A stretch of DNA of 64,000 bases from assembly GCA_951812345.1 (NCBI GenBank), contig OX638295.1:558501-622500 (forward strand), given 5' to 3'. The stretch is from Rhodothermales bacterium. GTDB taxonomy: Bacteria > Bacteroidota > Rhodothermia > Rhodothermales > VXPQ01. Shown here piece by piece: positions 1 through 49,907 of the stretch (position 1 is its first letter; each line of letters opens with the position of its first letter). The position numbers and the translations under genes were made by a program. The notes beneath the pieces are model-generated. The model searched no databases and was not told the origin of the DNA. It was given only the letters and a program-made list of their open reading frames with translations.

Positions 1-347
1 TGGACAAGCGGTATGTGACGGACATGGTGAGCCGGTTCCGCGAGCGCCGCGATTTCGTACTTGAGCAACTTGCCGCCATCGACGGCATCCGTTGCCCGCG
101 TCCCGAGGGCGCTTTTTATCTCTTCCCGGACGTATCCGTCTATCTTGGCTCGATGTCCGCTTCCGGCAGGGCCATCGAAACAAGCGAGGACCTGTGTTTC
201 TATCTCCTTGAAGAACATCATGTGGCGCTCGTGCCGGGGGGCGCCTTCGGCGATCCCGGAGGCCTGCGTATTTCGTACGCCGCTTCCACGGAAGATTTGC
301 AGGAAGCCATGCGCCGGATCGCCAAGGGGCTTTCCGAGCTCCGCTGA
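1..347 (+). CDS. PLP-dependent class I aminotransferase (aspartate aminotransferase-like), C-terminal part
   Basis: The gene enters from the left edge; the reading frame is open from base 3, so only about the last 114 residues are present. The visible part is the small C-terminal domain of fold-type I aminotransferases. It has the EGAFYLFPD strand, a VPGGAFGDPG loop, and GLRISYA, whose Arg is the family's substrate alpha-carboxylate-binding residue. The PLP-binding lysine lies outside the window. In this family the enzyme transfers an amino group between aspartate (or a similar amino acid) and 2-oxoglutarate in the cytoplasm. Exact substrate cannot be decided from this piece. An M50 protease gene follows on the same strand after about 50 bases. 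Confidence 0.88.
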   Translation, partial: DKRYVTDMVSRFRERRDFVLEQLAAIDGIRCPRPEGAFYLFPDVSVYLGSMSASGRAIETSEDLCFYLLEEHHVALVPGGAFGDPGGLRISYAASTEDLQEAMRRIAKGLSELR

Positions 348-6228: not shown

Positions 6229-6478
6229 GGGATGCTCTGATCAAGTCCACTTCGATCAGCGCTTCACTTTCACGCACGATATGCTTGCATCGTTGAAATC
6301 AGCGAAAAACACGGAGGATTCGGGTCATCTCGGCCGTGAAGCGCCCTTCGGGAGGCAGACAGAGACGCGCTGGCTGTGTCATTCCTCATTATGTGGGGCC
6401 TACCACATTGCTTCGTCATTCCTTGCCAGCGTGCCCCTTTCAGCCTCTGAATCTTTGCGGACTTAATCAGAGCATCCC
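6229..6478 (+). mobile_element. Full MITE-like element, copy A (250 bp, TA-flanked)
   Basis: The ends are inverted copies of each other over 19 of 20 bases (GGGATGCTCTGATCAAGTCC left, its complement at the right). Each is flanked by TA (6227-6228 and 6479-6480). Internal blocks match copies B and C, including the paired CATTCCTCATT and CATTCCTTGCCAGC motifs around a TGTGG/CCACA hairpin. It has no coding capacity. It fills most of the gap between the PorV-like gene and the convergent CPBP gene. Its right end provides the stop codon of that gene (6467-6469 on the minus strand). Both ends carry GATGCTC where other copies have GATACTC. Confidence 0.85.
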
Positions 6479-7237
6479 TAACGCATCCAGTCCGATTCCG
6501 AGTGCGCCGGAACGGGCGCGCAGCGTACACCAGAAGTCGAGCGCTATCATCTGCGCGGCATGGATCGGGACGGCGATCCAGAACGACCGGCAACGCCAGA
6601 CGAGGGCGCCGAGGGCTATGCCGCCGACAAGGGAAAGCACGATTTCCGGCAGCGGCTTGTCGAGGTGCAGCAAGGCGAACGGAATAGCCTGGATGAAGAT
6701 GGCGTATATCCCGAACGTACGCGCCGTTCCGAAGAGCATAAATCCCCGCCAAAGGTATTCCCAGCCAATCCAGTAGAAGAGGAAACACGCTTCGTAGATC
6801 AGGAAAATCGTCCAGTCCGTTTCCGCGGGGGCGTAATGGGGATACTGCGCCTGGAAGGCCGGATTCGCCGAAAGAAACCACGTGCCTGCAATGACCACCG
6901 GAAGATAGAGGGCCATCGCCAGCCCTGCGAATTTCCAGTCGCCCAGCCCCAGTCCCGCGTCCCGCGCGGATTGCCGGAACAGACCGCACAGGATCACGAG
7001 CGGGAGCGCGAATCCGGTGACGCCTTGCACCAGGAACCGCCATATCCAGGCGAGCAGGCCGGTGTACTCGCCCGGAAAATGCTCGCTCAGGGCGTCGTAA
7101 AAGAACCGGCGGCTCCCGACAGCGTCCTGCAGGATAACGAGGGTTGCGACGGCTGCCAGCACGGTCGCCGTCCGGCGGTCGAGGCGTCCGAGGGCTGTCG
7201 CCAGACGATCCGTTTCCGTTCGGATCCAGGTACGCAT
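6467..7237 (-). CDS. CPBP-family (CAAX protease-like) integral membrane protein
   Basis: This 256-residue polytopic membrane protein matches the CPBP/Abi group. It has motif 1 as WEYLWRGF, motif 2 as FALLHLDKPLPE and motif 3 as HAAQM, spaced as in the family. The usual EExxxR of motif 1 is WExxxR here, so the first Glu is Trp. Whether this subgroup is proteolytic is therefore uncertain. Family members are Rce1-like glutamic/metal-type intramembrane proteases or, in some cases, proteins of unknown activity. The last codons and the stop lie inside MITE-like copy A, so the original C-terminus was probably longer or different. There is no clear partner gene nearby. Confidence 0.75.
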   Translation of the reverse strand: MRTWIRTETDRLATALGRLDRRTATVLAAVATLVILQDAVGSRRFFYDALSEHFPGEYTGLLAWIWRFLVQGVTGFALPLVILCGLFRQSARDAGLGLGDWKFAGLAMALYLPVVIAGTWFLSANPAFQAQYPHYAPAETDWTIFLIYEACFLFYWIGWEYLWRGFMLFGTARTFGIYAIFIQAIPFALLHLDKPLPEIVLSLVGGIALGALVWRCRSFWIAVPIHAAQMIALDFWCTLRARSGALGIGLDALGML

Positions 7238-14958: not shown

Positions 14959-14992
14959 AATTCTGCGGGGCGCGCCGGGATGCGACGACATA

Positions 14993-15113
14993 AAGATACT
15001 CTGATTACGTCCGCGAAGTTCAGAGGCCGAAAGGAGTGCGCTGGCAAGGAATGACGAAGCAATTATAATATCTTTTATGCACGAACGCGAAGCGGTTTTG
15101 ATCAGCGTATCCT
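14993..15113 (-). mobile_element. MITE-like element, internally deleted copy D (121 bp, TA-flanked)
   Basis: Both ends are present (AAGATACTCTGATTACGTCC left; TTTTGATCAGCGTATCCT right), flanked by TA at 14991-14992 and 15114-15115. Relative to copy B, about 135 bases are missing between two GCAA tetranucleotides. One lies in GGAATGAGGAAGCAA, the other in ACGATGCAATTACAATATC. This looks like slippage or recombination between short direct repeats. It lies between divergent murB and the MGMT-like gene. Confidence 0.82.
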
Positions 15114-16878: not shown

Positions 16879-17133
16879 AGAATACTCTGAGTACGTCCGC
16901 AATGTTCAAAGGCTGAAAGGGGTGGGCTGGCAAGGAATGAGGAAGCAATGTGGCAGGCCCCACACAATGAGGAATGACGCGGCCAGCGTGCTTCTCGCAG
17001 CCTCCCGAAGGGCGCTTCACATCCGCGATGCCCCGAATCCGTACGTTTTCCGCTAATTTAAACGATGCAATTACAATATCTTTTACGTTCGAGTGTGAAG
17101 CGCTGATCGAAGCGGTTTTGGTCAGAGTATCCT
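16879..17133 (-). mobile_element. Full MITE-like element, copy B (about 255 bp)
   Basis: Left end AGAATACTCTGAGTACGTCC and right end GGTTTTGGTCAGAGTATCCT are inverted relatives. The interior matches copies A and C in the opposite orientation: GGCTGGCAAGGAATGAGGAA, a TGTGG...CCACA hairpin, then CTCGCAGCCTCCCGAAGGGC. The flanks are TC and GA, not TA. It separates divergent aroA and tatA and fills most of this 430-base gap. It ends about 115 bases upstream of the tatA start. Confidence 0.83.
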
Positions 17134-20303: not shown

Positions 20304-20900
20304 TTGCATATTCGGGAAATTACGTTTGTCAAGGGATCGGCGTCCTGGAGTGGACTCCCTTCGGACGGACGGCCCGAAGTGGCGTTCGCCGGCCGCTCGA
20401 ACGTGGGCAAGAGTTCCTTGTTGAATGCGCTGGCGGGGCGCCGGGCGCTGGCCCGAACGAGCGGGACGCCGGGCAAGACCAGGGAATTCAATTATTACCT
20501 TGTCAACGAGCGTCTGTATTTCGTGGATCTTCCGGGCTTCGGCTATGCGAAAGTCTCGAAGCGGGAGCGTGCGCACTGGGCCCGGCTCATCGAGCGCTAC
20601 ATTGCGGAACGCGATATGCTGCGCCTGATCGTTCACCTGGTGGACAGCCGGCACGAGCCGGGCGTCCTCGACAGGAGTTTTATAGAATTCATGTGCGGGA
20701 GCGACGTGCCCTACGCTATTGCCCTTACGAAGTGCGACAAACTCTCCGGTAATGATCGTGTGAAGACGGAACACCGCATGCACGAGACGCTTTCGACGTA
20801 CGGACTGGAAATTCCGGTTTTTCTGACCTCATCGCAGACAAAACGGGGCTTGCCCGCCTTGTTGGAATGGATCGGGACGATGGCAACCATGGAACCATGA
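20304..20900 (+). CDS. engB: Ribosome-biogenesis GTPase EngB/YsxC
   Basis: This 198-residue single G-domain protein has G1 GRSNVGKSSLLNAL, G2 around GTPGKTREFNYY, G3 DLPGFGYA, G4 TKCDKL and G5 SSQTKRG, all typical of EngB. It starts at a TTG; the first residues (HIREITFVKGSASWSGLP) match the family's N-terminus, so the start is supported by similarity rather than codon. It acts in 50S subunit assembly. The stop overlaps the serA start by 4 bases (ATGA), indicating coupled translation. sucD lies just upstream. Confidence 0.94.
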   Translation: MHIREITFVKGSASWSGLPSDGRPEVAFAGRSNVGKSSLLNALAGRRALARTSGTPGKTREFNYYLVNERLYFVDLPGFGYAKVSKRERAHWARLIERYIAERDMLRLIVHLVDSRHEPGVLDRSFIEFMCGSDVPYAIALTKCDKLSGNDRVKTEHRMHETLSTYGLEIPVFLTSSQTKRGLPALLEWIGTMATMEP

Positions 20901-22492
20901 CAAAAAAGATGAAGGTGCTTATCACCGATGCGGTCGATCCGATCTGCATCGACATGCTGGAAGCCCGCGGCATTACGCCCGATGTCCGGTTGAAGCAATC
21001 CGGAGAGGCGTTGCGGGAGGCGGTTGCAGAGGCGGACGGCTGGATCATTCGCAGCGGCACCACCATTACGGCGGACCTTATCGAAGCGGCAGGTAACCTG
21101 AGGGTGATAGGACGCGCCGGGGTCGGGGTGGACAATATCGACCTTGCCGCCGCTACCCGCCGGGGCGTACTTGTAATCAATGCGCCTTCCGGCAATACGA
21201 TCTCGACTGCCGAGCACACCTGCGCCATGTTGCTTTCCATGGCCCGCCGCGTGCCTCAGGCGAACCGCTCTATTGCGGAGGGCAAGTGGGACCGCAAATC
21301 GTTCACCGGATCGGAAGTGTACGAAAAGACCCTCGGCGTCGTGGGGTTGGGGAAAATCGGACGGGAAGTGGCGGTGCGCATGGCCGGGTTCGGCATGAAC
21401 CTGATCGGGTACGACCCGGTGTTGTCGCAGGAGGCTGCCGAGCGCCTTGGGGTGCGCCTTGTGGACATGGACGGGTTATTGACCGGGAGTGACTTCATTA
21501 CCGTACATACGCCCCTGAACGACGCAACCCGCGGCCTGCTCCGGAAGGAAACGCTTGCGCAGTGCCGCCAGGGGGTGTGTATTGTCAATTGCGCCCGGGG
21601 AGGCATTGTCGAGGAAAAGGACCTGCTTGCTGCGCTGGATAGCGGGCAAGTGGGGGGCGTGGCGCTTGACGTGTATTCCATAGAGCCTCCGCCCGTTGAA
21701 CTGCAGGAATTGCTCAGGCATCCGAAGGTAATCGCTACGCCCCACATTGCGGCCTCGACGGAGGAAGCGCAGGAAAAAGTCGCGGTGCAGATTACCGAGC
21801 AGGTCATTCGCGCGCTATGCGGCGAGGCGGTGCAGACGCCTGTCAACGCGCTGGCCATCAAAATGGCGGCGCAACCGGATGTCCAACCCTATTTGAGTCT
21901 ATCCGATCGCCTTGGCCAGTTGATCGGGCAACTGGGGGGTGGGCGTATTCGGGGGATCACCGTGGGGTGTCGGGGGGATGTTCCGCGCCGTTATTCCGAA
22001 GTGCTGACGGTGGCTGCCGTACGCGGGATTCTATCGAAGTGGGTCACGGAACCCGTGAATCTGATCAATGCGCCGTTTCTTGCGGAGGATATGGGGATCC
22101 ATGTGACGGAAGCACGGGATACGGCGCCCGGCGGGTACACGAATCTGTTGCAGATCGGTTTGGAAACGGACGACGGCGCCCGCACGGTGGCCGGTACGAT
22201 ATTCGACCGCGACGAACCGCGCCTGGTGCGTATTGACGATTACTGGCTGGAGATCAAGCCGGAGGGGCACATGATCGTCTACAGGAATGTGGACCGGCCC
22301 GGCATGTTGGCGGCGGTGGGGAGCATCTTGGCCCGTAACGATATCAACATCGGCGCCCTGGCGCTGGGGCGGGCCGGCAAGGGAGAGATTGCTTTGACGG
22401 CGGTTACCGTGGACGAGGTGGTTGCGGCAGCCGTAGTCGGGGAGATTGCGGCGCTGGACGGTATCGAGGATGTGCGCAGGGTGGACGTGTAA
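20897..22492 (+). CDS. serA: D-3-phosphoglycerate dehydrogenase SerA
   Basis: This 531-residue enzyme starts at the ATG overlapping the engB stop. It has a split substrate-binding domain and a Rossmann domain (VVGLGKIGREVAVRMAGFGMNLIGYDP). The catalytic residues are in NCARGGIVEE (Arg), the DVYSIEPPP segment (Glu) and TPHIAASTEEAQ (His). Next is the intervening allosteric-substrate-binding domain typical of the long form, and then a C-terminal ACT domain (VYRNVDRPGMLAAVGSILARNDINI). It oxidises 3-phosphoglycerate to 3-phosphohydroxypyruvate, the first step of serine synthesis. The ACT domain predicts serine feedback control. Confidence 0.95.
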   Translation: MTKKMKVLITDAVDPICIDMLEARGITPDVRLKQSGEALREAVAEADGWIIRSGTTITADLIEAAGNLRVIGRAGVGVDNIDLAAATRRGVLVINAPSGNTISTAEHTCAMLLSMARRVPQANRSIAEGKWDRKSFTGSEVYEKTLGVVGLGKIGREVAVRMAGFGMNLIGYDPVLSQEAAERLGVRLVDMDGLLTGSDFITVHTPLNDATRGLLRKETLAQCRQGVCIVNCARGGIVEEKDLLAALDSGQVGGVALDVYSIEPPPVELQELLRHPKVIATPHIAASTEEAQEKVAVQITEQVIRALCGEAVQTPVNALAIKMAAQPDVQPYLSLSDRLGQLIGQLGGGRIRGITVGCRGDVPRRYSEVLTVAAVRGILSKWVTEPVNLINAPFLAEDMGIHVTEARDTAPGGYTNLLQIGLETDDGARTVAGTIFDRDEPRLVRIDDYWLEIKPEGHMIVYRNVDRPGMLAAVGSILARNDINIGALALGRAGKGEIALTAVTVDEVVAAAVVGEIAALDGIEDVRRVDV

Positions 22493-22550
22493 AGGCGGGT
22501 TTCGGGGGCTTTTGAGCAGGTTTTGCACTTGTGAATAATAAGTGAAGAGC

Positions 22551-22650
22551 GTTTTTGTCCTTGTGTTCCACCGGTTTCTTAGATAGGATTTCCGCTCCTG
22601 TGGCGCAAGGACATAAAAAACAAGGACATAAAAAACAAGGACATAAAAAA
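22551..22650 (+). promoter_or_regulatory. Triple 15-bp tandem repeat and inverted partner upstream of the giant gene
   Basis: CAAGGACATAAAAAA occurs three times in perfect tandem at 22606-22650. An inverted partial copy (GTTTTTGTCCTTG) lies at 22551-22563. The array ends 34 bases before the giant gene's ATG, with a likely ribosome site (TGGAGAAG) in between. It falls in the promoter or leader, so a gain or loss of one unit by slippage would shift spacing by 15 bases. The inverted copy could pair with any unit to make a stem-loop. Confidence 0.6.
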
Positions 22651-22684
22651 ACAACCATAGCATACATACTTCCTGGAGAAGTAC

Positions 22685-25600
22685 ATGAGAACTATATCCT
22701 GGATCGTCGCGGGCATGGCGGCTATAACGGTCTCGCTCTTGACGCTGAGCGCGTGCGACGACGGGGCGCTGACGGGCCTGGACGATGTCGATCCGTCTGC
22801 GGGGGGTAATGCGCGTGTCGCCGTCGGGGACAGTACGGCCCGTGCAGGCGGCGTTCCAGGAGAGGGCGCGTCTTCCCTGGATCGGTATGCGCTTTTGGGT
22901 CGGATCTTGAGCGCCGACGGCAATCCGGATAGCGTGCGCGTACATGTCAAATCCTGGCATACGGATTATAACGAGACCGGTTACGCTACGCTCGGTATAC
23001 CTGCGAAGGGTACGATATACCACTGGGGGGCCGCGCATTCGGAGGGGGTAGATATCCATGGAGAGGGAGGCATTCCCGCGCTTGGACGGGATGCTTTGTA
23101 CGCCCTCTCTTTCGATAGTCCTGCGAGAGGCGATGCGTTGCTGGTCCTTTTGCCCTCCGCTGTCGATGTCGATACGTATTTCACATGGGATAACGGCGAT
23201 ATCGCTATTACGTCCCAGGCCATCGGGGCCAGGACGCATATCCTTGAGGATATATCGATCTATAACGATATTGGGTGGAGAAAAGCCGTTTGCGCGGGCG
23301 GTCGGTTCGGACGAATCGTTTTCGAGGGGGATAGCCTCGATGTGTCTACCGTGTTGCACCGTCGTTTTTATGGCGCCATATCCGGCGAAGCGGAAGGGGA
23401 GATACCGAAAGACGTTTCGGGCTGCGGAACGTCTTCGGATGCTTTCGATGTGCAATTGCTGGGATTCGCGGACGACGATGCGTACCAGATGATCGATTGG
23501 CGTCCGATCGTTTCGGAGTCGATATCCGAATCGGAATCGGTATTGGTTTCTAAATCTAAATCCGAATCGGTATCGGAATCGGAATCGGTTTCTGTATCGG
23601 AATCGGTATCTGCGAAGAGTTCGACGGCGAGTACGACCGCGAGCGCCAGCGGCAACCGATTGAACCGTTCAAAACCGGCGGGCCATGCGCCTCCTTCGGT
23701 GAATTTGTCGGCTTCTCCGGGCAAGATCGACCTCGGAAATAGTTCGACGCTTACCTGGTCGTCGTCGAACGCTACGAGCGTATCGATAAGTCCGGATGTC
23801 GGCCCGGATATCGGTACGGTTGCGACGTCGGGGCAGCGATCGGTTTCCCCGACGACTTCGACGACGTACACGATCGTGGCGAAAGGTCCGGGAGGAAGCA
23901 AATCGGACCGTGCAACCGTGAAGGTTCATATGCCTCCTTCGGTGAGTTTCTCCGCGTCTCCGGGCACGATTAACCTCGGCGGCAGTTCGACGCTTGGCTG
24001 GTCGTCCGAGCACGCTACGCTCGTATCGATCGGTCCGGATATCGGTTTGGTTGGAGCGTCGGGAGAGCGATCGGTTTCTCCGGATAGCACGACGACGTAC
24101 ACGATCGTGGCCACGGGCGCCGACGGAACGTCTACGCAGCGGGCAGAAGCAACCGTAACGGTTAATCGGCCGCCGACGGCCAACGCAGGCGCTGACCAGA
24201 CGGTGGACGAGGGGGATACGGTGACGCTATCCGGTTCGGGTAGTACGGACCCGGAGGGCGCGACGCTGACCTACGCCTGGACGGCTCCGGCAGGGACCGT
24301 GCTGTCGAGTACCACGGAGCCGTACGAGCGGACGTTCACGGCGCCGACGCAGCTTGTGTCGGACTCGGTGCTGACATTCACGCTGACGGTGAACGACGGG
24401 GCGCAAGACTCCGAGGCGGACACGGTGGCGGTGACGGTGACGGCGGACGCTCAGAGCGACAGAGCGGCGCTGGTCGCGCTCTACAACGCGACCGACGGGG
24501 CCAATTGGCAAACCAATACCAACTGGAACAGTAGCGCCGCCATCGATACGTGGTTCGGCGTCAGGACCGACGACGCCGGACGGGTGGTTTCTCTGGATCT
24601 CTTCCGCAACGACCTTTCGGGCTCGATCCCTGCGGCGTTGGGCGACCTGGCCAACCTCGAATACCTGGCTCTCTCCAACAACTCCCTTTCGGGCTCGATC
24701 CCGGCGGCGTTGGGCGACTTGACCAGCCTCACGAACCTGAATCTCTTCCGCAACTCCCTTTCGGGTTCGATCCCTGCGGAGTTGGGCGACCTCGCCAACC
24801 TCACGAGCCTGTCGATCGGTGAGAACTCCTTTTCGGGATCGATCCCTGCGGCGTTGGGCGACCTCGCCAACCTCGACTGGCTGAATCTCGCTAGCAACTC
24901 CCTTTCGGGCTCGATCCCTGCGGCGTTGGGCGACCTCGCCAACCTCACGAACCTGAATCTCAGTGGCAACTCCCTTTCGGGCTCGATCCCGGCGGCGTTG
25001 GGCGACCTCGCCAACCTCAGGAGGCTGTGGATCGGTGAGAACGACCTTTCGGGTTCGATCCCTGCGGCGTTTGTCAACCTGGACAATCTCATTCTCTTGC
25101 AAGTCGACAACGAGCTGTGCGTGCCGGGAGATACCGCATTCCAGCAATGGCTTGGCGATCTCGATGAGTTCGAGGGCGACAGCGACAACATCTGCAATCA
25201 GCCTCCTGTGGCCGATGCGGGCGCCGACCAGACGGTGGACGAGGGCGATACGGTGACGCTATCCGGTTCGGGTAGTACGGACGCGGAGGGCGCCTCGCTG
25301 ACCTACGCCTGGGGCGCTCCGGCGAGTATCTCGCTGTCGGACACCACGGCGCAGTCTCCGACGTTCGCGGCGCCGACGGAGCTGCTGTCGGACGCGTCGC
25401 TGACGTTCACGCTGACGGTGAACGACGGGACGCAAGATTCCGAAGCGGACACGGTGGCGGTGACGGTGACGGCGGGGCCGAACGATGCGCCGACGGCCAA
25501 CGCAGGCGTCGACCAGACGGTCGACGAGGGCGATACGGTGACGCTATCCGGTTCGGGTACGGACCCGGAAGGCGCGACGCTGACCTACGCCTGGGGCGCT

Positions 25601-28600
25601 CCGGCGAGTATCTCGCTGTCGGACGCCACGGCGCAGTCGCCGACGTTCACGGCGCCGACGGAGCTTCTGTCGGACTCGGTGCTGACGTTCACGCTAACGG
25701 TGAACGACGGGGCGCAAGACTCCGAGGCGGACACGGTGGCGGTGACGGTGACGGCGACGGCGACGGCGAACGATGCGCCGACGGCCGATGCGGGCGCCGA
25801 CCAGACGGTGGACGAGGGCGATACGGTGACGCTATCCGGTTCGGGTACGGACCCGGAAGGCGCGACGCTGACCTACGCCTGGGGCGCTCCGGCGAGTATC
25901 TCGCTGTCGGACGCCACGGCGCAGTCGCCGACGTTCACGGCGCCGACAGAGCTTCTGTCGAACGCGGTGCTGACGTTCACGCTAACGGTGAACGACGGGG
26001 CGCAAGACTCCGAGGCGGACACGGTCGTCGTGACGGTGTATCAGAAGGACAGAGCGGCGCTGGTCGCGTTCTACAACGCGACCGACGGGGCCAATTGGAG
26101 CAGAAATACCAACTGGAACGGTAGCGCCGCCATCGGTACGTGGTACGGCGTCGCGACCGATGACGCCGGACGGGTGGATTCTCTGACCCTCCTTAACACC
26201 TCCCTTTCGGGTTCGATCCCGGCGGAGCTGGGCGACTTGACCAGCCTTGAAGAACTGAATCTCCACGATAACTCCCTTTCGGGTTCGATCCCGGCGGAGC
26301 TGGGCGACTTGACCAACCTTGAAGGGCTGACTCTCACTTACAACGACCTTTCGGGTTCGATCCCGGCGGCGTTGGGCGACTTGACGAACCTTGAAAAACT
26401 GCGTCTCAGTGGCAACGACCTGACGGGCTCGATCCCGGCGGCGTTGGGCGACTTGACCAATCTCGAGAGCTTGGCTCTCGACAACAACGACCTTTCGGGT
26501 TCGATCCCTGCAGCGCTGGGCGACTTGACCAACCTTGAATGGCTGACTCTCGATGGCAACTCCTTGACGGGTTCGATCCCGGTGGAGTTTGTCAACCTGG
26601 ACGATCTCCTTACCTTGCAAGTCGACAACGAGCTGTGCGTCCCGGGGAGTACCGCATTCCAGCAATGGCTTGGCGATCTCGATGAGTTCGAGGGCGACAG
26701 CGACAACATCTGCAACGATGCTCCGACGGCCAACGCGGGCGCCGACCAGACGGTTGCGGAGGGGGCGACGGTGACGCTCTCCGGTTCGGGTACAGACAGT
26801 AATGGCAATGCGCTGATCAACCCGACCTACGCCTGGGGCGCTCCGGCGAGTATCACGTTGTCGGACACCACGGCTGCGTCGCCGACGTTCACGGCGCCGA
26901 CGGAGCTTCTGTCGGACTCGGTGCTCGAGTTCACGCTGACGGTGAACGACGGGACGCAAGATTCCGAGGCGGACACGGTCGTGGTGACGGTGACGGCGGG
27001 TACGAACGATGCGCCGACGGCCGATGCGGGCGTCGACCAAACGGTGGACGAGGGGGATGCGGTGACGCTATCCGGTTCGGGTACGGACCCGGAGGGTGCG
27101 ACGCTGACCTACGCCTGGGGCGCCCCGGCGAGTATCACGCTGTCGGACGCCACGTCGCAGTCGCCGACGTTCACGGCGCCGACGGATCTTCTGTCGGACG
27201 AGGTGCTCGAGTTCACGCTGACGGTGAACGACGGGACGCAAGATTCCGAGGCGGACACGGTGACGGTGACGGTCGAGGCGGGGGATAACGATGCGCCGAC
27301 GGCCAATGCAGGCGCCGACCAGACGGTGGCGGAGGGGGCGACGGTGACGCTATCCGGTTCGGGTACGGACCCTGAGGGGGCCTCGCTGACCTACGCCTGG
27401 GGCGCTCCGGCGAGTATCACGCTGTCGGACGCCACGGCGCAGTCTCCGACATTCGCGGCGCCGACGGAGCTTCTGTCGGACGCGCCGCTGACGTTCACGC
27501 TGACGGTGAACGACGGGACGCAAGATTCCGAGGCGGACACGGTCGTGGTGACGGTGACGGCGGGTACGAACGATGCGCCGACGGCCGATGCGGGCGCCGA
27601 TCAAACGGTGGACGAGGGGGATACGGTGACGCTATCCGGCTCGGGTACGGACCCTGAGGGCGCTTCGCTGACCTACGCCTGGGGCGCTCCGGCGAGTATC
27701 ACGCTGTCGGACGCCACGTCGCAGTCTCCGACGTTCGCGGCGCCGACGGAGCTTCTGTCGGACGCATCGCTGGAGTTCACGCTGGTGGTGAACGACGGGG
27801 TGAACGACTCCGCGAAGGACACGGTGGCGGTGACGGTGACGGCGGGTACGAACGATGCGCCGACGGCCGACGCAGGCGCCGACCAGACGGTTGCGGAGGG
27901 GGCGACGGTGACGCTATCCGGTTCGGGTACGGACCCGGAGGGCGCGACGCTGAGCTACGCTTGGGGCGCTCCGGCGAGTATCACGCTGTCGGACGCCACG
28001 TCGCAGTCTCCGACGTTCGCGGCGCCGACGGAGCTTCTGTCGGACGCGTCGCTGACGTTCACGCTGACGGTGAACGACGGGACGCAAGATTCCGAGGCGG
28101 ACACGGTGACGGTGACGGTCGAGGCGGGGGATAACGATGCGCCGACGGCCGATGCGGGCGCCGATCAAACGGTGGACGAGGGGGATACGGTGACGCTCTC
28201 CGGTTCGGGTACGGACCCGGAGGGGGCCTCGCTGAGCTACGCCTGGGGCGCTCCGGCGAGTATCACGCTGTCGGACGCCACGTCGCAGTCTCCGACGTTC
28301 GCGGCGCCGACGGAGCTTCTGTCGGACGCGTCGCTGACGTTCACGCTGACGGTGAACGACGGGACGCAAGATTCCGAGGCGGACACGGTGACGGTGACGG
28401 TCGAGGCGGGGGATAACGATGCGCCGACGGCCAACGCAGGCGTCGACCAAACGGTTGCGGAGGGGGCGACGGTGACGCTCTCCGGTTCGGGTACGGACCC
28501 GGAGGGCGCCTCGCTGAGCTACGCCTGGGGCGCTCCGGCGAGTATCACGCTGTCGGACGCCACGTCGCAGTCTCCGACGTTCGCGGCGCCGACGGAGCTT

Positions 28601-31561
28601 CTGTCGGACGCATCGCTGACGTTCACGCTGACGGTGAACGACGGGACGCAAGATTCCGAGGCGGACACGGTGACGGTGACGGTCGAGGCGGGGGATAACG
28701 ATGCGCCGACGGCCAACGCAGGCGTCGACCAAACGGTTGCGGAGGGGGCGACGGTGACGCTCTCCGGTTCGGGTACGGACCCGGAGGGCGCCTCGCTGAG
28801 CTACGCCTGGGGCGCTCCGGCGAGTATCACGCTGTCGGACGCCACGTCGCAGTCTCCGACGTTCGCGGCGCCGACGGAGCTTCTGTCGGACGCGTCGCTG
28901 ACGTTCACGCTGACGGTGAACGACGGGACGCAAGACTCCGAGGCGGACACGGTGACGGTGACGGTCGAGGCGGGGGATAACGATGCGCCGACGGCCGATG
29001 CGGGCGCCGATCAAACGGTGGACGAGGGGGATACGGTGACGCTGGACGGGAGTGGCAGCTCCGACCCGGAGGGCGCCTCGCTGAGCTACGCCTGGGACGC
29101 TCCGGCGAGTATCACGCTGTCGGACGCCACGTCGCAGTCTCCGACGTTCGCGGCGCCGACGGAGCTTCTGTCGGACGCGTCGCTGACGTTCACGCTGACG
29201 GTGAACGACGGGACGCAAGATTCCGAGGCGGACACGGTGACGGTGACGGTCGAGGCGGGGGATAACGATGCGCCGACGGCCGATGCGGGCGCCGACCAGA
29301 CGGTGGACGAGGGAGATACGGTGACGCTGGACGGGAGTGGCAGCTCCGACCCGGAGGGCGCGGATCTGGACTACGACTGGGACGCTCCGGCGGGTATCAC
29401 GCTGTCGGACGCCACGACGCAGTCGCCGTCGTTCGCGGCGCCGACGCAGCTTCTGTCGGACGCGTCGCTGACGTTCACGCTGACGGTGTACGACGGGGTG
29501 AACTATTCTGCGGAGGACCAAGTGACGGTGACGGTCGAGGCGGGGGATAACGATGCGCCGACGGCCAACGCGGGCCCCGACCAGACGGTGGCGGAGGGAG
29601 CGACGGTGACGCTATCCGGTTCGGGTACGGATCCGGAGGGCGCGGCGCTGACCTATACCTGGACGGCGCCGACGGATATCACGCTGTCGAGTACCACGGC
29701 GCAGTCGCCGACGTTCACGGCGCCGACGGATCTTCTGTCGGACGAGGTGCTCGAGTTCACGCTGACGGTGAACGACGGGACGAACAACTCTGCAGCGGAC
29801 ACGGTGACGGTGACGGTCAATGCATCGCCTACGGTCACGTTGTCGGCCAATCCAGGTACGATTTGCCGAGGAGGATCGTCAATGCTCACCTGGTCGTCTA
29901 CGAACGCTACGAGCGTATCGATCAGTCCGGGTATCGGTTCGGTTGCGCTATCGGGATCGGAAGAGGTTTCTCCGACGAGCACGACAACCTACACGGCTAC
30001 GGCTACAAATCCGGCAGGAAGCAATACGGACCAGGCAACCGTGACGGTTATTAATCAGTCTCCGACGATCACGTCTTTCACTGCTTCTCCGAGCACGATT
30101 TACCGCGGGAGTAATTCGACGCTTAGCTGGTCGTCTACGAACGCTGCGAGCGTATCGATCAATCAGGGTATCGGTTCGGTTGCGGCGTCGGGAACGCGAT
30201 CGGTTTCTCCGACGAGCACGACGACCTACACGATCACGGCGACAAATGCTTGCGGAAGCGTCACGGCCACAGCGACCGTGACGGTTATTCCGCCTCCTAC
30301 GGTCGAGTTTGAGGACCCCGATCCAGGTACGATTTGCGATGGACAGTCGTCAACGCTCGAGTGGTCGTCTACGAACGCTACGAGCGTATCGATCAGTCCG
30401 GGCATCGGTTCGGTTGCGGCGTCGGGAACGCGATCGGTTTATCCGACGAGCACGACAACCTACACGATCACGGCTACAAATCCGGCAGGAAGCGATACGG
30501 ACCAGGCGACCGTGACGGTTATTAATCAGTCTCCGACGATCACGTCTTTCACTGCTTCTCCGAGCACGATTTACCGCGGGAGTAATTCGACGCTTAGCTG
30601 GTCGTCTACGAACGCTGCGAGCGTATCGATCAATCAGGGTATCGGTTCGGTTGCGGCGTCGGGAACGCGATCGGTTTCTCCGACGAGCACGACGACCTAC
30701 ACGATCACGGCGACAAATGCTTGCGGAAGCGTCACGGCCACAGCGACCGTGACGGTTATTCCGCCTCCTACGGTCGAGTTTGAGGACCCCGATCCAGTTA
30801 CGATTTGCGATGGACAGTCGTCAACGCTCGAGTGGTCGTCTACGAACGCTACGAGCGTATCGATCAGTCCGGGCATCGGTTCGGTTGCGGCGTCGGGAAC
30901 GCGATCGGTTTCTCCGACGAGCACGACAACCTACACGATCACGGCTACAAATCCGGCAGGAAGCGATACGGACCAGGCGACCGTGACGGTTATTGATCAG
31001 TCTCCTACGGTGAGTTTGTCTGCGTTTCCGGGTACGATCGATTCGGGGGACCCGTCAACGCTCACCTGGTCGTCTACGAACGCTGCGAGCGTATCGATCG
31101 ATCAGGGCATCGGCGAGGTTGATACAGATGGGGAGCAAGAGGTTTCTCCGACGAGCACGACGACCTACACGATCACGGCGACAAATGCTTGCGGAAGCGT
31201 CACGGCCACAGCGACCGTGACGGTGAACCTTACAGCCTCTATCACGGGTCCAACATTGATTCCTTTGTTATTGGAATCCACATGGGGGTCCACGGTCACA
31301 GGCGGCACGCCTCCCTACACGTACAGCTGGCACTATGGGACCATCTCCTGTCCCGAAGCTTCTGCCCTTGCTGCACCACCTGCTGCCCTTGCTGCCCGTG
31401 CCGATGCTTGCGTGTGGAACTATACAGGCGCAGGATCGGGAAGCAGTTATAGTTATACGCCGACGACATGGCCTTCTGGGCGAGTTCGGCTGATCGTTAG
31501 CGATTCGGCCAGTCCCGAGAATTCGGTGACGAAGACGCTGGACGTGACGGTCGATCCATAA
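22685..31561 (+). CDS. Giant modular surface lipoprotein (PKD/Ig repeats, two LRR blocks)
   Basis: The product has 2958 residues. A lipoprotein signal ends in LSAC (Cys24) followed by DDG; acidic residues after Cys can mark surface lipoproteins in Bacteroidota. Next come a unique region to about residue 275, a Ser/Glu/Val-rich linker (nt 23515-23640), and two Ig-like domains with LTWSS/LGWSS cores. A first PKD/K319-like domain starts near 24171. LRR block 1 (24451-25200, seven 24-residue LSGSIPAALGDL repeats) is followed by three PKD-like domains. LRR block 2 (26041-26715, six repeats) is followed by eleven PKD-like domains to 29820. Six more Ig-like domains run to 31230, then a C-terminal domain with two Cys. 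Each LRR block has a DRAALVA-YNATDGANW cap. No enzyme motif is visible; adhesion or matrix binding is inferred. Confidence 0.85.
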   Translation: MRTISWIVAGMAAITVSLLTLSACDDGALTGLDDVDPSAGGNARVAVGDSTARAGGVPGEGASSLDRYALLGRILSADGNPDSVRVHVKSWHTDYNETGYATLGIPAKGTIYHWGAAHSEGVDIHGEGGIPALGRDALYALSFDSPARGDALLVLLPSAVDVDTYFTWDNGDIAITSQAIGARTHILEDISIYNDIGWRKAVCAGGRFGRIVFEGDSLDVSTVLHRRFYGAISGEAEGEIPKDVSGCGTSSDAFDVQLLGFADDDAYQMIDWRPIVSESISESESVLVSKSKSESVSESESVSVSESVSAKSSTASTTASASGNRLNRSKPAGHAPPSVNLSASPGKIDLGNSSTLTWSSSNATSVSISPDVGPDIGTVATSGQRSVSPTTSTTYTIVAKGPGGSKSDRATVKVHMPPSVSFSASPGTINLGGSSTLGWSSEHATLVSIGPDIGLVGASGERSVSPDSTTTYTIVATGADGTSTQRAEATVTVNRPPTANAGADQTVDEGDTVTLSGSGSTDPEGATLTYAWTAPAGTVLSSTTEPYERTFTAPTQLVSDSVLTFTLTVNDGAQDSEADTVAVTVTADAQSDRAALVALYNATDGANWQTNTNWNSSAAIDTWFGVRTDDAGRVVSLDLFRNDLSGSIPAALGDLANLEYLALSNNSLSGSIPAALGDLTSLTNLNLFRNSLSGSIPAELGDLANLTSLSIGENSFSGSIPAALGDLANLDWLNLASNSLSGSIPAALGDLANLTNLNLSGNSLSGSIPAALGDLANLRRLWIGENDLSGSIPAAFVNLDNLILLQVDNELCVPGDTAFQQWLGDLDEFEGDSDNICNQPPVADAGADQTVDEGDTVTLSGSGSTDAEGASLTYAWGAPASISLSDTTAQSPTFAAPTELLSDASLTFTLTVNDGTQDSEADTVAVTVTAGPNDAPTANAGVDQTVDEGDTVTLSGSGTDPEGATLTYAWGAPASISLSDATAQSPTFTAPTELLSDSVLTFTLTVNDGAQDSEADTVAVTVTATATANDAPTADAGADQTVDEGDTVTLSGSGTDPEGATLTYAWGAPASISLSDATAQSPTFTAPTELLSNAVLTFTLTVNDGAQDSEADTVVVTVYQKDRAALVAFYNATDGANWSRNTNWNGSAAIGTWYGVATDDAGRVDSLTLLNTSLSGSIPAELGDLTSLEELNLHDNSLSGSIPAELGDLTNLEGLTLTYNDLSGSIPAALGDLTNLEKLRLSGNDLTGSIPAALGDLTNLESLALDNNDLSGSIPAALGDLTNLEWLTLDGNSLTGSIPVEFVNLDDLLTLQVDNELCVPGSTAFQQWLGDLDEFEGDSDNICNDAPTANAGADQTVAEGATVTLSGSGTDSNGNALINPTYAWGAPASITLSDTTAASPTFTAPTELLSDSVLEFTLTVNDGTQDSEADTVVVTVTAGTNDAPTADAGVDQTVDEGDAVTLSGSGTDPEGATLTYAWGAPASITLSDATSQSPTFTAPTDLLSDEVLEFTLTVNDGTQDSEADTVTVTVEAGDNDAPTANAGADQTVAEGATVTLSGSGTDPEGASLTYAWGAPASITLSDATAQSPTFAAPTELLSDAPLTFTLTVNDGTQDSEADTVVVTVTAGTNDAPTADAGADQTVDEGDTVTLSGSGTDPEGASLTYAWGAPASITLSDATSQSPTFAAPTELLSDASLEFTLVVNDGVNDSAKDTVAVTVTAGTNDAPTADAGADQTVAEGATVTLSGSGTDPEGATLSYAWGAPASITLSDATSQSPTFAAPTELLSDASLTFTLTVNDGTQDSEADTVTVTVEAGDNDAPTADAGADQTVDEGDTVTLSGSGTDPEGASLSYAWGAPASITLSDATSQSPTFAAPTELLSDASLTFTLTVNDGTQDSEADTVTVTVEAGDNDAPTANAGVDQTVAEGATVTLSGSGTDPEGASLSYAWGAPASITLSDATSQSPTFAAPTELLSDASLTFTLTVNDGTQDSEADTVTVTVEAGDNDAPTANAGVDQTVAEGATVTLSGSGTDPEGASLSYAWGAPASITLSDATSQSPTFAAPTELLSDASLTFTLTVNDGTQDSEADTVTVTVEAGDNDAPTADAGADQTVDEGDTVTLDGSGSSDPEGASLSYAWDAPASITLSDATSQSPTFAAPTELLSDASLTFTLTVNDGTQDSEADTVTVTVEAGDNDAPTADAGADQTVDEGDTVTLDGSGSSDPEGADLDYDWDAPAGITLSDATTQSPSFAAPTQLLSDASLTFTLTVYDGVNYSAEDQVTVTVEAGDNDAPTANAGPDQTVAEGATVTLSGSGTDPEGAALTYTWTAPTDITLSSTTAQSPTFTAPTDLLSDEVLEFTLTVNDGTNNSAADTVTVTVNASPTVTLSANPGTICRGGSSMLTWSSTNATSVSISPGIGSVALSGSEEVSPTSTTTYTATATNPAGSNTDQATVTVINQSPTITSFTASPSTIYRGSNSTLSWSSTNAASVSINQGIGSVAASGTRSVSPTSTTTYTITATNACGSVTATATVTVIPPPTVEFEDPDPGTICDGQSSTLEWSSTNATSVSISPGIGSVAASGTRSVYPTSTTTYTITATNPAGSDTDQATVTVINQSPTITSFTASPSTIYRGSNSTLSWSSTNAASVSINQGIGSVAASGTRSVSPTSTTTYTITATNACGSVTATATVTVIPPPTVEFEDPDPVTICDGQSSTLEWSSTNATSVSISPGIGSVAASGTRSVSPTSTTTYTITATNPAGSDTDQATVTVIDQSPTVSLSAFPGTIDSGDPSTLTWSSTNAASVSIDQGIGEVDTDGEQEVSPTSTTTYTITATNACGSVTATATVTVNLTASITGPTLIPLLLESTWGSTVTGGTPPYTYSWHYGTISCPEASALAAPPAALAARADACVWNYTGAGSGSSYSYTPTTWPSGRVRLIVSDSASPENSVTKTLDVTVDP
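25201..26040 (+). repeat. PKD-like repeats 2-4 in the giant gene
   Basis: Three consecutive units of about 280 bp lie between the two LRR blocks. They open with DAG/NAG-x-DQTVDEGDTVTLSGSG and end in FTLTVNDG-QDSEADTV. They are close copies at nucleotide level, within the coding sequence. Confidence 0.8.
26716..29820 (+). repeat. Tandem array of eleven PKD-like repeats (about 282 bp each)
   Basis: Units 5-15 repeat with a period of 282 bp, or 285 bp where SGSGT is replaced by DGSGSS. Units 11 and 12 (about 28423-28704 and 28705-28986) are almost identical, differing at only a few bases, so the array expanded recently. The units alternate between VDEGDTV and VAEGATV forms. Confidence 0.85.
30056..30997 (+). 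repeat. Direct duplication of a 471-bp two-domain Ig unit
   Basis: The segment starting CAGTCTCCGACGATCACG at 30056 recurs at 30527, a period of 471 bp or 157 codons. Only a few differences are seen, such as CCAGGTACG versus CCAGTTACG. Each unit encodes two Ig-like domains, one beginning SPTITSFTASPSTI, the other PPTVEFEDPDP. Confidence 0.82.
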
Positions 31562-49493: not shown

Positions 49494-49749
49494 AGGATAC
49501 TCTGATCAAAACCGCTTCGCTCAGCACTTCACTTTCGCGCGTAAATGATGTCATGATTCCATCGTTACAATCAGCGAGAAACACTGAGGATTCGGGGCGT
49601 CGCGGACGTGACGTACCCTTCGGGAGGCTGCGAGGGATGCGCTGGCCGCGTCATTCCTCATTGTGTGGGGCCTGCCACACTGCTTCGTCATTCCTTGCCA
49701 GCACATCCCTCGCAGCCTCTGAGCTTTGCGGACTTAATCAGAGTATCCT
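49494..49749 (+). mobile_element. Full MITE-like element, copy C (256 bp, TA-flanked)
   Basis: Ends AGGATACTCTGATCAAAACC (left) and the complement of AGGATACTCTGATTAAGTCC (right) match over the first 13 bases and 17 of 20. They are flanked by TA at 49492-49493 and 49750-49751. Inside, 49626-49646 and 49697-49717 form a 21-bp inverted repeat with one mismatch, around a second small GTGTGG/CCACAC hairpin. It has no coding capacity. It lies in the 529-base divergent gap between rho and the hydrolase gene; the rest of that gap shows nothing recognisable. Confidence 0.87.
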
Positions 49750-49907
49750 TAAGACCGCATACGCCATGCGGCGGGAAACCGATAGATGAAAAGTCCGGCG
49801 AATGATTCGACGAACGATCGCAACCCGGTTTTTAGGGCGTGCGGCCCGAAAAACGGAAAACCCGGAGAAAGATGGGATGTACAGCACTCCAACATCATAG
49901 CAGGGCA

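Follow-up and report, generated by a model that had tools for sequence, protein, structure and literature searches.

A three-unit 15-bp array before a giant predicted lipoprotein gene is probably a recent, locally confined expansion

Introduction

In Haemophilus influenzae, the promoters of hmw1A and hmw2A carry 7-bp repeats in 9 to 28 units, whose number varies between strains and whose effect on the transcript has been measured (PMC2424069). The uspA2 gene of Moraxella catarrhalis has AGAT repeats in its 5′ leader, with 6 to 23 units and a tested effect on expression (cited in PMC4679880). The same source describes TAACTGA intergenic direct repeats in marine Beggiatoaceae and some Bacteroidetes, where a single heptamer forms 169 sets in one genome (PMC4679880).

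The array described here precedes a giant gene of a Rhodothermales bacterium and lies in a stretch of 64,000 nucleotides, which is referred to as the window. Literature searches turned up no paper on the giant-gene family or its 15-bp repeat, which is a statement about these searches and not a wider one about absence from print. If the unit number varied and set the output of the gene, slippage-tuned expression of surface proteins would be extended to an uncultured lineage, and the array would serve as a simple marker for it.

The array and the giant gene

The array consists of three perfect and contiguous copies of CAAGGACATAAAAAA on the forward strand, at 22606–22620, 22621–22635, and 22636–22650 (22606–22650 as a whole). 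Its end is separated by 34 bases from the ATG of the giant gene at 22685, and both coordinates bear out the first-pass annotation, which had placed three perfect 15-bp copies at this distance. With up to three mismatches allowed, the whole window holds five CAAGGACATAAAAAA-like sites versus a shuffle mean of 0.42, and none of 100 shuffles reaches five. Judged as a slippage repeat, the array is perfect and close to a start codon (34 bases), and the promoter upstream of it is a predicted one.

The giant gene (22685–31561, forward strand) is an open frame over 2958 aa that encodes a predicted lipoprotein, whose Pfam matches fall into leucine-rich-repeat and K319L-like/PKD families. The N terminus has a signal-like stretch that ends in LSAC, which we take to be a lipoprotein signal. 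Upstream on the same strand lies a serA-like D-3-phosphoglycerate dehydrogenase gene (20867–22492). The leader between the two genes (22493–22684, forward strand) is common to all close copies of the giant gene.

The genome that bears the array has 2.82 Mb in a single contig. The first ~300 residues of the giant protein are encoded at three places in it with 99–100% protein identity, and the 5′ 2.8 kb of these copies are 96.7–97.5% identical as DNA. Among 40 genomes searched, the own genome included, three match at E ≤ 0.001. Four copies of the 5′ part are found in the sister species G003 and one distant homologue, at 45% protein identity, in G005; a search with the first ~300 residues gave no match in three further genomes of the genus. 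The G003 copy at 199 kb is the ortholog of the window locus, as the two can be aligned at 91% across 6.5 kb on the serA side. The leaders of both own-genome paralogs start with a stub of the serA 3′ end, and the family therefore seems to have arisen from the serA-linked locus. The G003 copies at 2092 and 2291 kb have frames of 918 and 876 aa, with an early stop in a shared out-of-frame tail after the leucine-rich repeats, and look frameshifted. Next to the 1184-kb paralog lies a transposase-like frame (L004:1746-2273, near 1185 kb of the own genome), and a sequence resembling an insertion end, named by eye, precedes the leader of this paralog.

Over the initial ~2.2 kb of the coding region (22685–24900), the window gene differs from the 1283-kb paralog at 7 of 2204 sites (binned counts summed) and from the 1184-kb paralog at 25 sites in the same bins. 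The copies within the genome are closer to each other in this stretch than to the orthologs, which fits gene conversion. Conversion of this kind would keep the 5′ coding stretch homogeneous within the genome, with the leaders apparently escaping it.

Unit number among related loci

Leaders were aligned for seven close loci (the window locus, its two own-genome paralogs, and four G003 loci) together with the distant G005 homolog. Three units are present at the window locus and one at all seven other loci, including the serA-linked ortholog; no relative thus retains the array as an array. By genome, with one genome per species, the counts are 3, 1, and 1 in the own genome and 1, 1, 1, and 1 in G003. 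The single unit reads CAAGGGCATAAAAAA in both own-genome paralogs and CAAGGACATAAAAAA in two G003 loci, and it is decayed to CAAGCGCAT-ACATGA in the two G003 loci with the 918- and 876-aa frames. The G005 homolog has one decayed unit-like stretch. The orthologous stretch measures 571 bases in the sister species versus 601 here, consistent with two units fewer, and a unit doublet is found in none of five genomes of the genus.

Because the sister loci, the ortholog among them, carry a single unit, one unit is ancestral, and the expansion from one to three took place at the window locus in its own lineage. By this comparison of loci, the array is a lineage- and locus-confined expansion rather than a control element conserved in the family. 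With the array set aside, the leader of the window locus shows differences at 16 of 150 sites to the ortholog and at 13 of 149 sites (~9%) to the own-genome paralogs. All three units have the same sequence, which is also that of the single unit at two sister-species loci; such identity amid a diverging leader suggests a recent event, read over 45 sites, which are few. The claim of a slippage-variable repeat in the first-pass annotation is supported insofar as loci and lineages differ in unit number (three versus one at seven loci), but hypermutable arrays are usually longer than three 15-bp units, and one unit is the most seen in any relative. With one genome of the species compared, the locus may be a variable one and the array one of its alleles.

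Promoter and leader placement

A sigma-70-like promoter is predicted at 22561–22589 of the forward strand, with TTGTGT (22561–22566), a 17-bp spacer, and TAGGAT (22584–22589); the prediction rests on its architecture in six of eight family loci and on box enrichment. The pattern TTGnnn-17/18-TAnnnT is present at the window locus, the own-genome paralogs at 1283 and 1184 kb, the G003 copies at 199 and 1797 kb, and G005, and it is absent at the G003 copy at 2291 kb and, by alignment, at that at 2092 kb. Upstream of other genes in the sampled part of the genome (98 upstream regions less the three family leaders), TTGnnn-16..18-TAnnnT occurs 20 times versus 8.5 expected, a count reached in 0 of 200 shuffles, which is weaker than it looks as the pattern was picked among 80 combinations of boxes and spacings and two of the hits lie inside a dispersed repeat. 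Three of six positions in TTGTGT and four of six in TAGGAT match the textbook boxes, so that both are weak promoter boxes. An alternative promoter-like site, TTGAGC-16-AATAAT (22512–22539, forward strand), was the sole site in the first promoter scan. It was set aside because TTGTGT-17-TAGGAT is better conserved: at the alternative site, G005 has an altered −10-like hexamer and two G003 copies have an altered −35-like one.

From the predicted promoter, the transcript would start at about 22596. If TTGTGT-17-TAGGAT is the promoter, the leader RNA has the array as its first half, and the inverted arm discussed below, which overlaps the −35 box, is not transcribed from it. The array thus probably lies in the 5′ leader, downstream of the predicted promoter.

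Genome background of the unit

The 15-bp unit was rejected as a genome-wide regulatory element, as it has 10 sites with up to two mismatches in 2.8 Mb versus 9 for a reversed control. Among these 10, sites with 0 or 1 mismatch lie only at leaders of the giant-gene family. A neighboring leader motif likewise occurs at three places only, all of them family leaders. Perfect tandem repeats (period 7–80, at least 24 bases) were scanned in 301 kb of the own genome, made up of the window, ten 20-kb stretches, and the two paralog loci. Three intergenic places were obtained: the CAAGGACATAAAAAA array, 11/22/33-bp arrays clustered at L050:13212-13510, and a 23-bp doublet lying across the predicted end of a gene. 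Intergenic tandem arrays are uncommon but not unique in the 301 kb scanned.

The AAGGA within the unit found no support as a ribosome-loading site: across 211 sampled frames, Shine-Dalgarno-like 4-mers reach at most 9% at −10 to −6 versus about 6% at other positions, a count that took the first ATG per frame as the start, which blurs the signal. For the 16S 3′ end, G000 matched neither RF00177 nor a 3′-end pattern. Hexamers enriched upstream of genes, TCCTTG and GAGTAT among others, were discarded as a shared motif because they come mostly from a dispersed intergenic repeat. This repeat (CTTCGTCATTCCTTGCCAGC ... TCAGAGTATCCT) is seen in the window at about 6411–6480, 14991–15060, 16926–16945, and 49683–49751, and genome-wide. 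With up to two mismatches, it has 108 copies in the own genome (control 0), 144 in G003, and 20–57 in four other genomes of the genus.

The inverted copy and alternative readings

An inverted partial copy of the unit, TTTTTGTCCTTG, lies at 22552–22563 of the forward strand. It is complementary to unit 1 at 11 of 12 positions and already faces the single unit in the sister loci. The first-pass annotation had placed such a copy 43 bases upstream; the copy is there, but the gap between the arms is 42 bases. Taken by itself, this copy does not stand clearly above chance: among 60 dinucleotide shuffles per leader, an inverted 12-mer of equal quality arose 4 times for the window locus and once for the ortholog. 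In G005, the leader contains an inverted repeat of its own, a perfect 12-bp pair GTGAAAAACAAG/CTTGTTTTTCAC over the promoter region, which none of 60 shuffles matches.

The upstream arm could act in RNA, pairing alternatively with unit 1, 2, or 3 of the leader transcript as a stem-loop switch. In the minimum-energy fold, for which an earlier transcript start was assumed, the arm indeed pairs with unit 1 (−30.8 kcal/mol), and the stem between arm and single unit is predicted in four of six other close leaders, hence in five of seven overall. As it is predicted with a single unit in sister leaders, the arm predates the expansion and did not arise with the array. The fold has, however, a z-score of only −1.29 and is equaled by 22 of 200 shuffles; none of its eight pairs is changed on both sides among seven distinct leaders, two of which break three of the eight pairs, and Rfam has no match within the window. 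The better-conserved predicted promoter, moreover, would start transcription past the upstream arm. An RNA hairpin is thereby ruled out as the main reading, an RNA switch of this kind is almost certainly not what the array represents, and the alternative stem-loops proposed at first are a weak idea, the arm overlapping the predicted −35 box without compensatory changes in the stem. The same arm and unit could instead act in DNA, as inverted half-sites of an operator that are bound by a regulator, in which case the expansion multiplies the downstream half-site. The half-sites flank the predicted promoter and are still matched in five of seven loci, and the center distances computed from the coordinates are 54, 69, and 84 bp from the upstream arm. 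This operator is nevertheless very improbable: the leader motif is private to the giant-gene family with no second gene that has the same sites, the inverted match is near chance, and the distant G005 homolog has a different inverted repeat.

A slippage-variable tuner, by analogy with hmwA and uspA2, would have a unit number that varies in the population and alters leader length or strength. It gains from the unequal unit counts of the loci (3, 1, 1 and 1, 1, 1, 1), from a gene that belongs to a multi-copy family and is predicted to encode a surface lipoprotein, and from the perfection of the array, as expected of a slippage substrate. Three units are nonetheless few beside the 9 to 28 (hmwA) and 6 to 23 (uspA2) of the compared loci, and the five genomes of the genus hold no doublet or longer array, which makes such a tuner unlikely. 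One further role would be that of a "volume knob," in which unit expansion, by half-site multiplication or by leader lengthening, could give one among several interchangeable surface proteins, homogenized by gene conversion, an expression level of its own; we regard this as a long shot.

The array is probably best explained as a recent expansion from one to three units (+30 bp) in the leader of the serA-linked family member, with a neutral or small effect on the leader and no dedicated switch. The 15-bp segment would have been duplicated first and then extended by replication slippage. The array would lie a few bases past the transcript start, inside the 5′ untranslated leader, and the 30 added nucleotides, A-rich and mostly unpaired, would make this leader longer, with promoter and start-codon region untouched. 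Most likely, the consequence is neutral or at most a slight change of leader function. Functional repeat arrays in other bacteria also sit in leaders before surface-protein genes, which counts against neutrality.

Comparison with known repeat systems

Read against its relatives, the array is a real but ordinary small duplication. By analogy with hmwA and uspA2, a slippage switch would be possible but is unsupported, because the array is short, the sole one of its kind, and absent from all sister loci. The locus is a clean example of a regulatory-looking repeat in one genome that appears as a private expansion once the sister loci are aligned.

Compared with the known systems, the array shares with the TAACTGA repeats its short direct repeats just upstream of a start codon in marine bacteria, but its 15-bp unit is confined to a single gene family and forms an array at just one locus (PMC4679880). 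As in uspA2, the repeat probably lies between a promoter, here a predicted one, and the start codon of a surface-protein gene; unlike uspA2, it has a longer unit in fewer copies (PMC4679880). The likeness to hmw1A/hmw2A lies in short tandem units upstream of a large surface-protein gene and in paralogous loci (two in hmw) with unequal unit numbers, whereas here three units of 15 bp are known from the sequence of one genome and the relatives are single-unit (PMC2424069).
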